From Aeromicrobium sp. Leaf245 (GTDB taxonomy: Bacteria > Actinomycetota > Actinomycetes > Propionibacteriales > Nocardioidaceae): a stretch of DNA of 64,000 bases. Made by a program: the position numbers and the translations under genes. The notes beneath the pieces were generated by a model. The model worked only from the letters and a program-made list of their open reading frames with translations, made no database searches and had not been told where the DNA came from. Below, piece after piece: positions 46,582 to 50,255 of the stretch. The first letter of the stretch is position 1; the number at the start of each line of letters is the position of its first letter. The stretch is from NCBI RefSeq assembly GCF_942548115.1, contig NZ_OW824151.1:310001-374000 (forward strand). Reading direction: 5' to 3'.

Positions 46582-48021
46582 ATGACCACGCGCGAGGGAG
46601 TGCAGTTCCGGTCCGAGAGCACGTCCGCCACGGCGAGGGAGGTCCTGGCCGATGCGCTGCGGCCCGCCGATCCGGTCGGTGCGCGCGCCGTCGAGCACGA
46701 GACGGCCTGGCGGCGGCAGTACCTCCAGCACTTCCGCCGGGCCGTGGAGGCCGGCGTCGGGGATGCGGCGGCTGCGCGATCGATCGCGGCCGAGGGGCTG
46801 CGCAGCGCGCATGCGGCCATGCGGTTCGACGACGTCGCCCTCGACGAGGCCCTGGCGGTGACGCCGCTGGACCAGGTGCTCAGCACGACCACCGTCCAGG
46901 GCGAGGCGGAGCCGGAGACCGAGCTGACCGTGCCCTACCGCGGCGAGAGGCTGGGGGGCGACGCCCTCCTTCGCCAGCTGGACGACTGGCTGGACCGTGG
47001 TGTGGTCACGCCGTCGTGCGCGGACGCGGTGCGCACCGTGCAGGCGAACCCCGACTGGCTGCGGCTCGAGGGCGACCTCGTCGTCGTGCTCGGGGCGGGG
47101 GCCGAGATGGGTCCGTACCGCGCGCTGCAGCGGTGGGGTGCCGAGGTGGCCGCCGTCGACCTGCCCCGCGCCGACGTGCAGGGCCGCATCGCCGAGGTCG
47201 CGACGGGCGGGGCGGGCCGCGTGCACGTGCCCAGTCGGATCGTGACCCACGGTCGACCCGACGGTGGGAGCGACGTCGGCGCGGACCTGGTGCGCGAGCT
47301 GCCGGCCCTCGCCCACTGGCTGGGCTCCTTCGAGTCCCGCGTCGTGCTGGGCAACTACTGCTACGCCGACGGCGGGCAGCACGTCCGGGTCTCGATGGCC
47401 GCGGACGCGCTCGCGGACCACCTGGTGCGAGAGCGCCCCGACACCGCGCTGGCCTTCCTGGCCACACCCACCGACGTGTTCGCCGTCGGTGCCGACGACG
47501 TGGCGAGGTCGGAGGCGGCGTACCGCGCCGGCCGGTTCGGTCGGATGGCTCGCCACGCCACACGCGTGGCGAGCGGCGGACGGCTCCTGCAGCGGAACTA
47601 CCCGCCCGGCGCCGACCCGGGCATCTGCGACGCCCTCGTCCCGCAGCAGGGTCCCAACTACGCGTTCGCCAAGCGGCTGCAGCGCTGGCGTGCCACGACC
47701 GCTCGCGCCGCCGGCACCACGGTGTCGCTCAACGTGGCACCGGCCACCCGCACGCGGTCGGTCGTGAAGAACAAGGCCCTGGCGGCGGCCTACGCCGGCG
47801 CGCACCGCTTCGGCGTCGAGATCTTCGACCCCGCCACGTCGAACACCCTGATGGCCGCGCTCCTGGTCCACGACCTCCGCGCCGGCCTGCCCGCCGAGGC
47901 CGAGCCGTGGCAGGACGAGGCTCGCGGCGCCGCCCACGGCGGACTCTGGACGGCGGCCTACCACCCCCGCTCCGCCCTCGGCCTCGCCGCGGTGCTGGGC
48001 GTGGGGGCGCTGCGGGGGTGA
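46582..48021 (+). CDS. Rossmann-like protein of unknown function (479 aa)
   Basis: I cannot name this protein. An N-terminal helical part (residues 1-110) is followed by a nucleotide-binding-like strand-loop-helix, LVVVLGAGAEMGPYRALQ (167-184), and an acidic strand end (VAAVDLPRADVQGRI), which suggests NAD(P) or SAM binding. The second half has conserved-looking segments such as LQRNYPPGADPGICDAL and QGPNYAFAKRLQRW. No signal peptide or membrane helix is seen before a weakly hydrophobic C-terminus (LGLAAVLGVGAL). TAGGCT at 46570-46575 is exactly 6 bases before the ATG, giving a confident leaderless start. It stands alone before the repeat region. Confidence 0.75.
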   Translation: MTTREGVQFRSESTSATAREVLADALRPADPVGARAVEHETAWRRQYLQHFRRAVEAGVGDAAAARSIAAEGLRSAHAAMRFDDVALDEALAVTPLDQVLSTTTVQGEAEPETELTVPYRGERLGGDALLRQLDDWLDRGVVTPSCADAVRTVQANPDWLRLEGDLVVVLGAGAEMGPYRALQRWGAEVAAVDLPRADVQGRIAEVATGGAGRVHVPSRIVTHGRPDGGSDVGADLVRELPALAHWLGSFESRVVLGNYCYADGGQHVRVSMAADALADHLVRERPDTALAFLATPTDVFAVGADDVARSEAAYRAGRFGRMARHATRVASGGRLLQRNYPPGADPGICDALVPQQGPNYAFAKRLQRWRATTARAAGTTVSLNVAPATRTRSVVKNKALAAAYAGAHRFGVEIFDPATSNTLMAALLVHDLRAGLPAEAEPWQDEARGAAHGGLWTAAYHPRSALGLAAVLGVGALRG

Positions 48022-48236
48022 GCCTGGGGTCGACCTGCGGCTGGGCTCGCTGGGTGGGGCTCGACCTGGGGTGCGCTGGCTCGGCTGGGTCTCGTCCTGC
48101 GGCTGCGCCTCCTCGGCTGGGTCTGGACTTGCGGCCGCGCTGCTCCGCCCGGGTCTCGGCTCGGTCTCCGAAAGGGGCCTTGACCGGCGGACGGGCTCCC
48201 GCTCGGCCGAGCCCCGGTGCCGCGGGCCGGTCCTGG

Positions 48237-48431
48237 GCCGTCGGAGGTAGGTCTCGCACCGAACCAGGCCGTCAGAGATAGGTCTCGCACCTCATCGGGC
48301 CGTCAGAGGTAGGTCTCGCACCTCAAACCGCCCGCATGCGGTGCGTCTCCTACCTCCCACTGCCCAAGACGGGTGAGAGGTAGGTAGCGCGCGGAATCGG
48401 AGCGTCAGAGGTAGAGGGCCCGCGGTATGGA
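48237..48431 (+). repeat. 31-bp repeat units with core GTCAGAGGTAGGT
   Basis: Three contiguous units start at 48237, 48268 and 48299, each beginning GCCGTC and containing GAGGTAGGTCTCGCACC with one or two changes. Two more contiguous units start at 48370 and 48401. An inverted core (CTCCTACCTCCCAC at 48347) lies between the two groups. Confidence 0.75.
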
Positions 48432-48442
48432 GGTCTGTATCC

Positions 48443-48540
48443 GCGCGCCACCCACCTCCGCCCGGCGGATAACGCGTGCCACCTACCTCTCACGGCCCGC
48501 GCCCGGCGGATAACGCGCGCCACCTACCTCTGACGGCCCC
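48443..48540 (-). repeat. Inverted copies of the GAGGTAGG repeat with CGGCGGATAACGCG
   Basis: CACCTACCTCTCACGGC at 48480-48496 and CACCTACCTCTGACGGC at 48521-48537, 41 bp apart, plus a diverged copy at 48449. Each pair is separated by CCCGGCGGATAACGCG. They are reverse complements of the units at 48237-48431 and could pair with them in RNA or a cruciform. Confidence 0.7.
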
Positions 48541-48831
48541 AACCGACACACGACGAGGCAACGAGACGGTCAGGACGCCCCGAACGCACCATCGACGTCC
48601 CCGCGCCCCGAGAACCCAGGCCGAGCACGCACCCCACCGCCGGTCGAGGCCCCTTTCGGAGCGCAGGTCGACGAGGAGCCGAGGCAGCGCAGCCGCAGGA
48701 CACGACCCAGCCGAGCAGTCGCAGCCGCACGACGAGACCCGCCCGAGCAGCGCAGCCGCACGACGAGACCCACCCGAGCAGTGGCGCCGCAGGACCAGAC
48801 CCACCCGCCGAGGCGCAGCCGCAGGGCGGAG

Positions 48832-49500
48832 TCAGAGCCGCAGCTCGGCCGCCTCGTCCAGCGACGCGCGGGAGGTGCGGTAGGAGGCGGTGGGGTGGTC
48901 GAGGTCGGGGTGGCCGAAGGAGATGCCGCACACCACCTGACGGTCGTCGTCGAGGTCGAACCACTCCCGCAGCAGCTCCGAGCGCATGGCCAGGGCCGCC
49001 TGCGCGCAGGCGCCGAGACCGAGGGCCTGGGCCGCGAGCAGGAAGGACTGCACGTACAGACCGCAGTCGATCGCGCCGTACACGCCGAGCGAGCGGGTCG
49101 TGGTGACGATCGCGACGTGCGGGGCGCCGAAGAACTCGAAGTTGCGCATCGTCTGGGCGGCGGACCCGGCCCGGTCGCCCTTCACCACGCCGACCGCCTC
49201 GTACAGCTGCCAGCCCGACTCGCGCCGACGCTCGGCGTACACGCCCTCGTAGGACTCCGGGAAGGTCAGGTCGGGGCCGAAGCGCTCGTCGTCGGCCATG
49301 GCCTGCTTGAGCCGCTCGGTCTCGCCTCCGGCGGTCACCACCACGTGCCACGGCTGCGTGTTGCACCACGACGGGGTGCGCTGCGCGGCGGTCAGCAGCC
49401 GCTCGATGGTGGCCGCCTCGACCGGTTCGTCGGTGTATCCGCGGCAGCTCCAGCGCTCCTCCAGGAGCGCCTCGAGGGCCTCGATCCGGCTCTCGCTCAT
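48832..49500 (-). CDS. Nitroreductase family protein
   Basis: A 222-residue FMN-dependent NAD(P)H oxidoreductase. RWSCRGYTDEPV at residues 15-26, AAQRTPSWCNTQPWHVVV and LGLGACAQAALA are the usual FMN-contact segments; the last is a stretch seen in BluB/nitroreductase-like proteins. It probably reduces nitroaromatics, enones or quinones. The ATG at 49500 overlaps the end of the upstream enoyl-CoA hydratase gene (ATGA). It is the last of three coupled genes and faces the repeat region. Confidence 0.87.
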   Translation of the reverse strand: MSESRIEALEALLEERWSCRGYTDEPVEAATIERLLTAAQRTPSWCNTQPWHVVVTAGGETERLKQAMADDERFGPDLTFPESYEGVYAERRRESGWQLYEAVGVVKGDRAGSAAQTMRNFEFFGAPHVAIVTTTRSLGVYGAIDCGLYVQSFLLAAQALGLGACAQAALAMRSELLREWFDLDDDRQVVCGISFGHPDLDHPTASYRTSRASLDEAAELRL

Positions 49501-50255
49501 CGGCCCACGAACCCGGCGGCGCGCTTGTCCAGGAACGCCTGGATGCCTTCCTTCGAGTCCGCCGTGTCGGCGAGCTCCCGCTGCAGGCGCAGCTCGCGGT
49601 CCAACGTCTCGTCGAGGTGGCGCAGCGTGTTGGCGGCGATGGCCTGCTTGGTGGCGGCGTACGCGGCCGTGGGGCCGTTGGCCAGCTTCGCGACCAGCTC
49701 GGCCACCTGCTCGGCGTAGTCGTCGCCGCAGCACCGGTCGATGAGTCCCATCTGCGCCGCCTCGGCGGCCGGGAGCCGCTCGCCCAGCAGCGAGAGGCGG
49801 TTGGCCCGGGCCCGACCCACCGACGCGGCGAGCAGCTCGGTCGCCCCGCCGTCGGGCATGAGGCCGATGTTGACGAACGCCTGCAGGAAGTAGGCCGACT
49901 CGTGGGCGACGGTCACGTCGGCGGCCAGCGCCACTGACATCGCGATGCCGGCGGCGGGGCCGTTCACCGCGGCCACGACCGGGCGGTCCGTCGAGACCAG
50001 TGCGCGCACGAGCCGGTTGCCGTTCTCGTGCGTGCCGCCCCGCTCGAGCCGACGCAGGTCCGCGCCGGCGCTGAAGGCACGGCCCGCGCCGGTCACCACG
50101 ACGACGCGGGCGTCGGTGGTCTCGACGGCCTCGGCGGCCCTCTCGAGCATGGCCCCGTCGAGCGCGTTCATGACGTCGGGACGGTTGAAGGTGATCGAGA
50201 GGATGCCCTCGGTGGTGTCGAGCAGCAGCTCGGTGCTGGTCGGGTCGCTCGTCAC
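49497..50255 (-). CDS. Enoyl-CoA hydratase/isomerase family protein
   Basis: A 252-residue crotonase. The first oxyanion segment is RAFSAGADLRRLE, and the second is VNGPAAGIAMSVALAADVTVA. The position of the second catalytic Glu (INIGLMPDGGATELL region) carries Asp-Gly-Gly, as in PaaG/MenB-like and isomerase-type members, so isomerase is as likely as hydratase. The GTG at 50255 is preferred because it overlaps the hydrolase stop (GTGA) and follows GGAG at 5 bases; an ATG at 50267 is the alternative. Confidence 0.87.
   Translation of the reverse strand: MTSDPTSTELLLDTTEGILSITFNRPDVMNALDGAMLERAAEAVETTDARVVVVTGAGRAFSAGADLRRLERGGTHENGNRLVRALVSTDRPVVAAVNGPAAGIAMSVALAADVTVAHESAYFLQAFVNIGLMPDGGATELLAASVGRARANRLSLLGERLPAAEAAQMGLIDRCCGDDYAEQVAELVAKLANGPTAAYAATKQAIAANTLRHLDETLDRELRLQRELADTADSKEGIQAFLDKRAAGFVGR

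Follow-up and report, generated by a model that had tools for sequence, protein, structure and literature searches.

A dispersed family of mosaic palindromic repeats with 31-bp units in intergenic gaps of Aeromicrobium sp. Leaf245

The mosaic elements of Neisseria, in which dRS3 motifs flank RS arrays, show that a short conserved motif can bound variable intergenic repeats. Neisserial dRS3 repeats correspond to CGTC-1 REPs (PMC3733652). Most descriptions of REP-type palindromes come from Proteobacteria, a few other phyla supplying the rest; RAYT transposases are considered to mobilise the GTAG class. REP, BIME and REPIN sequences are short palindromic units in alternating orientation with dozens of intergenic copies; they lie downstream of genes and in convergent gaps, form species-specific families and are targeted by insertion sequences, and the family described here resembles them in all of these respects (PMC3733652, PMC2817692, PMC1525189). 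A bias toward convergent gaps is seen in REPs (PMC3733652) and also in BOX, RUP and SPRITE repeats, for which it is mainly taken as insertion tolerance (PMC3049150). The 810-bp gap analysed here is, with a probability that we put at roughly 60%, one copy of a lineage-specific, non-autonomous mosaic element resembling REP, BIME and BOX sequences, whose 31-bp units would serve as protein-recognition sites at the level of DNA. A literature search of partial coverage found no account of repeats of this kind in the genus Aeromicrobium, and the family is apparently undescribed.

The window, that is, the whole stretch of 64,000 nucleotides that was analysed, contains the element at positions 48022–48831, where it fills the entire gap between the stop codon of a plus-strand ORF (46582–48021) and the 3′ end of a convergent, minus-strand gene of the nitroreductase family (48832–49590). 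ORF and gene calling agreed with the sequence-only reading that this gap holds no plausible gene. The 479-aa product of the upstream ORF belongs to no Pfam family and is conserved in Aeromicrobium; its identity is 41–86% across this genus and some other actinobacteria. The left outer arm (48022–48165, plus strand) consists of degenerate, GC-rich 31/32-bp units in reverse orientation, and the right outer arm (48662–48831, plus strand) of 31/32-bp units of the type CGCAGCCGCACGACGAGACCCACCCGAGCAG; such arms recur genome-wide. A repeat search of the window located the right-arm units at 48688, 48720, 48751 and 48782, with spacings of 32, 31 and 31 bp, and their mirror on the left side at 48069–48133, confirming the arm units with 31–32 bp spacing and the reversed mirror set that had been proposed. 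The inverted arms (I1) measure 130 nt and are 76% complementary. Inside them lies a boundary motif, J, present on the left as CTCCGAAAGGGGCCTTGACCGGCGG (48166–48190, plus strand), where it was recognised from the J sites of the genome and from identity among paralogues, and on the right in inverted form (48637–48661, minus strand); the two are identical at 24 of 25 bases, exactly as had been read before.

The core between the two J motifs contains nine copies of a 13-bp motif, B, at 48240, 48271, 48302, 48373 and 48404 in the forward and at 48348, 48450, 48481 and 48522 in the reverse orientation. The sequence-only reading had the count of five forward and four reverse motifs and the exact 31-bp spacing inside the forward groups right, and its coordinates were a few bases off. 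Three forward units with an exact 31-bp period (48240–48332, plus strand) lead into a first palindrome (48302–48360, no strand), in which the forward unit at 48302 faces the reverse unit at 48348 at an offset of 46 bp, the standard B>46<B geometry. Two forward units of subtype 2, 31 bp apart (48373–48434, plus strand), lead likewise into a second palindrome (48404–48462, no strand), formed by the units at 48404 and 48450, again at an offset of 46 bp. A 41-bp (31 + 10 bp) tandem duplication follows (48459–48539, minus strand), carrying the reverse units at 48481 and 48522 with 95% identity; it is missing from the other full-length copies, which shows that unit number is changing. No other tandem repeat in the 64-kb window scores as high as these arrays.

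Among the possibilities raised earlier, a repeat family turned out to be right. When the 810 bp served as a blastn query against the 3.46-Mb genome from which it comes (Aeromicrobium sp. Leaf245, G000), 181 matches resulted, including three long ones (at 505, 553 and 3410 kb) and many restricted to the arms. The family, which is non-coding and intergenic, occupies about 81 distinct intergenic places in this genome, and 51 copies were examined in G005, one of two sister species; these counts combine pattern matches, blast matches and extracted stretches and are lower bounds. The B consensus GTCAGAGGTAGGT occurs 86 times at up to one mismatch, versus 0 for the reversed control, and J (CTCCGAAAGGGCCTCGACCGG) has 82 sites at up to three mismatches, with a control of 0; the repeat signal lies far above chance. 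Inverted J motifs enclose a core of one of two kinds. In P cores, palindromes are nested about units of the type GGACGCANGATTCTGCGTTCG; B cores have units of GTCAGAGGTAGGT, and B arrays also occur alone, in gaps down to 83 bp. Adjacent B motifs on the same strand are exactly 31 bp apart in 44 of 48 cases, forward–reverse neighbours are 46 bp (15 cases) or 77 bp (7 cases) apart, and reverse–forward neighbours 25 bp (3 cases). The arms have a period of 31/32 bp and the P core one of 30 bp, so that three modules of unlike sequence share a nearly equal pitch of about three helical turns. Instead of being imposed by a protein, this near-equal pitch may reflect a common ancestral unit, and GACGCA is present in all three modules. 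The arms, J and P are shared with both sister species, G005 and Aeromicrobium sp. CnD17-E (G028), and an assembly artefact is unlikely, because there are many independent copies and these modules recur in the two other assemblies.

An alignment of four full-length paralogues, picked without reference to the B motif, gave identities of 0.897 for the B motif and 0.952 for J, whereas the remainder of the unit reached 0.737 and the arms 0.673. Such conservation above the surroundings accords with DNA recognition by a protein, and the protein-binding array suggested by the sequence-only reading fits both this pattern and the exact 31-bp spacing; the binding itself we infer. A multi-hairpin non-coding RNA, which had also been suggested, is highly improbable. 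Folding potential is high (z = -9.8 versus shuffles for 48022–48831 folded as single-stranded DNA), and across 28 B palindromes the inner stem has compensatory-looking pairs, with a pairing of 0.893 versus 0.726 for shuffled partners that arises through matching arm subtypes; this concordance is, however, also expected if one unit subtype gave rise to both arms. In the same 28 palindromes, pairing of the 13-bp motif is not above that of shuffled partners (0.813 versus 0.823). No described RNA family in Rfam matches 48022–48831, and among the arm mismatches of copies between co-directional genes, 56 G-U stand against 77 A-C on the transcribed strand, showing no G-U excess in the hairpin arms, where selection for a hairpin RNA should have let G-U persist more readily than A-C. 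On these three grounds an RNA element was rejected as the selected feature.

With genes called by a simple codon-usage script rather than a full annotation, convergent pairs flank 42 of the 81 places, whereas 41 of the remaining 362 gene pairs in these stretches are convergent (p = 2e-14); copies are underrepresented in divergent gaps (p = 0.001). The strong enrichment in convergent gaps would suit bidirectional terminators or insulators, palindromes kept to halt RNA polymerase or to absorb supercoiling between convergent genes. So would the fact that one gap can hold different palindrome arrays in different species, and that, at the junction orthologous to 48022–48831, CnD17-E and the MAG L116 have a simple terminator-like hairpin with a 20-bp stem and several other Aeromicrobium also have simple strong hairpins. 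As an explanation of the family we nevertheless regard it as rather doubtful. No U-tract pattern was seen on reading the copies, the sense-strand hairpins lack a G-U excess, a single hairpin would do without 810 bp of phased units, and REPs and BOX elements likewise favour convergent gaps, where they are read as occupying tolerated sites (PMC3733652, PMC3049150). Moreover, in G005 neither element nor hairpin lies between these two genes, whose stop codons are separated by four bases, GTCG. The terminator array of the sequence-only reading thus found no support as a selected property, given the missing sense-strand G-U excess and the missing compensatory signal in the 13-bp motif, whereas a passive role as a bidirectional barrier or terminator is possible, because relatives have simple hairpins at the same junction. 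The CnD17-E hairpin was considered as a dispersed family and dropped, as it has a single copy in that genome. At the junction after the orthologue of 46582–48021, many Aeromicrobium species (L116–L145) have other strong hairpins, for example of the GAGTGTGACGTTTC + complement types, which may represent further repeat families.

The empty G005 site is the kind of absence, in a relative with identical flanking genes, that had been named beforehand as grounds against the feature; the feature is still real, because the family is dispersed. At up to two mismatches, J has 77 sites in Leaf245, 98 in G005 and 86 in CnD17-E; it was found at zero sites in 33 other genomes of the genus and in 22 genomes of the same order, and one more genome of the genus had a single match, equal to its control. 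Exact copies of the B 13-mer number 48 in Leaf245, 0 in G005 and 1 in CnD17-E, which makes B a recent amplification, confined to the Leaf245 species, beside an older set of arms, J and P. Comparison of 1.2-kb flanks found that 10 of the 81 places are occupied in both Leaf245 and G005, where chance predicts one or two, and this excess means that some sites are old or preferred; at three of these ten, B is present in Leaf245 and J/P in G005. Both sisters have a third nested-palindrome family instead at the 553-kb site. This family (ATCGGTGGATCATCAACCGCAG...) was seen at L256 (G005 C1:106070–106378) and L257 (CnD17-E C188:9381–9563), where the corresponding Leaf245 gap holds a B/J element, and palindromes of the ATCGGTGGATCATCAACCGCAG type are also part of several G005 and CnD17-E cores. 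Copies match best to others of their own species in 78 of 80 and 50 of 51 cases, shared sites included. Copies are thus grouped by species and not by locus, which means spread or homogenisation inside each species; gene conversion that homogenises the copies could mimic spread. The exact 31-bp period, the inverted symmetry, the motif conservation above background and the distribution of about 80 sites round the chromosome would all suit phased arrays kept by selection for a dedicated host nucleoid protein. Such chromosome-architecture sites are improbable, since closely related species differ in where copies lie, the B array is nearly absent from the sisters, and clustering by species indicates spread rather than stable function. 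Separately, the flanks of Leaf245 C1:1163778 and 3303341 are swapped relative to G005 C1:754118 and 2883046, as expected for a large inversion, both breakpoints of which appear to lie at repeat copies.

How the family moves was approached through its possible mobilisers. RAYT (Y1_Tnp, PF01797) gave no match in Leaf245, G005 or CnD17-E, whereas control genomes were positive, and REPs driven by RAYT were therefore rejected; nothing similar was found in plasmid, phage and viral collections, and an origin from these was rejected as well. The searches found no mobilising enzyme or binding protein for the family. It is quite unlikely that the inverted J motifs are the ends of a MITE-type element recognised by a cognate transposase. 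J is near-invariant and inverted at both ends of the core, and an empty site exists in G005, as this reading would have it; yet J is subterminal, lying inside inverted arms of variable length, no target-site duplication is definable for the element, and a cognate insertion sequence ending in J was not seen. The one insertion sequence associated with the family targets the P unit, has other ends and is missing from Leaf245 and CnD17-E. It carries a DDE (rve) transposase, is presumably IS30-like and is present in exactly three copies in G005 (C1:642527–643222, 2337557–2338252 and 2826523–2827218; loci L173, L244 and L249), all three inside P palindromes at matching positions within the unit and accompanied by apparent duplications of 3 bp (CAG, CAG and AAG). 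Its transposase gene, which lies between J sites in three G005 elements, was rejected as the mobiliser, because the sequence is inserted in P, has its own ends and is absent from the two other genomes; it is a parasite of the repeat rather than its engine there, in parallel with the insertion sequences that target REPs (PMC1525189).

Combined with the above, the preferred reading of a REP/BIME/BOX-like mosaic element would work as follows. The analysis establishes the dispersal of the family, its architecture, its homogeneity within species, the turnover of its sites and its targeting by an insertion sequence in G005. Arms, J and core form an array of 31-bp units in nested palindromes, in which the 13-bp B motif and J would be read as double-stranded DNA by a putative protein at a three-turn pitch. 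Because no enzyme of its own was found, copying would probably take place in trans, or through recombination or hairpin-templated copying, and copies would spread inside each species and settle mostly downstream of genes, particularly in convergent gaps. An effect on the neighbours, such as a barrier to transcription or supercoils in a convergent gap, would then be a tolerated or co-opted side effect. A bolder reading, which we consider unlikely, is that the arrays are bound by a putative DNA-binding protein, specific to this lineage, which recognises units phased at 31 bp and drawn from several sequence families. It would copy these units and also organise the chromosome where convergent genes end, and fixed sites would swap their palindrome family and keep the array geometry.

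The family indicates that a counterpart of REP-type palindromes, far more elaborate in build, can thrive in an actinobacterium without RAYT. With its recent amplification in just one of the three sisters, B offers a natural before/after comparison for the birth and copying of palindromes, and the near-constant 31-bp pitch across modules allows a direct test of whether pitch reflects a protein. The pair of inversion breakpoints at copies suggests that the family may also shape chromosome rearrangement.

Compared with the known systems, the Aeromicrobium family has the many dispersed intergenic copies of REPs and BIMEs, but its host is an actinobacterium, a phylum unnamed in PMC3733652 or PMC2817692. 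Unlike REPs and BIMEs, its units are fixed in a 31-bp head-to-tail arrangement and its copies span hundreds of bp with arms and J; unlike the GTAG superfamily, it occurs in three genomes that all lack a RAYT gene. A REP unit is a palindrome of 20–40 bp bearing an unpaired GTAG or CGTC tag at one end, and no clear tag of this type is seen here: GTAG occurs inside GAGGTAGGT of B units, where a candidate neighbouring stem, GGTG-ACG-CACC, does not survive in subtype 2 owing to variation at positions 18 and 20, and P units have an ACGCA/TGCGT stem that is overlapped by CGTC. It resembles the dRS3-flanked arrays of Neisseria in that a conserved short motif, here J, bounds variable intergenic repeats, and differs from them in that J by itself is not cleanly palindromic, whereas the repeats that it encloses are palindromes in phase. 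In architecture, the only aspect compared, it shares with BOX of Streptococcus pneumoniae an assembly from modules that are constant at the ends and vary in number at the centre, the preference for convergent gaps and the clustering of different families; BOX, however, measures 67–637 bp and has A-B-C modules (boxA-boxB(n)-boxC) with TIR and TSD, whereas the Aeromicrobium element has ends that are inverted copies and a centre of nested palindromes built from 31-bp units (PMC3049150). The Aeromicrobium family is a new, lineage-specific bacterial interspersed mosaic palindromic element, not classed as a REP and set apart from REP and BIME sequences by its build and the missing transposase.
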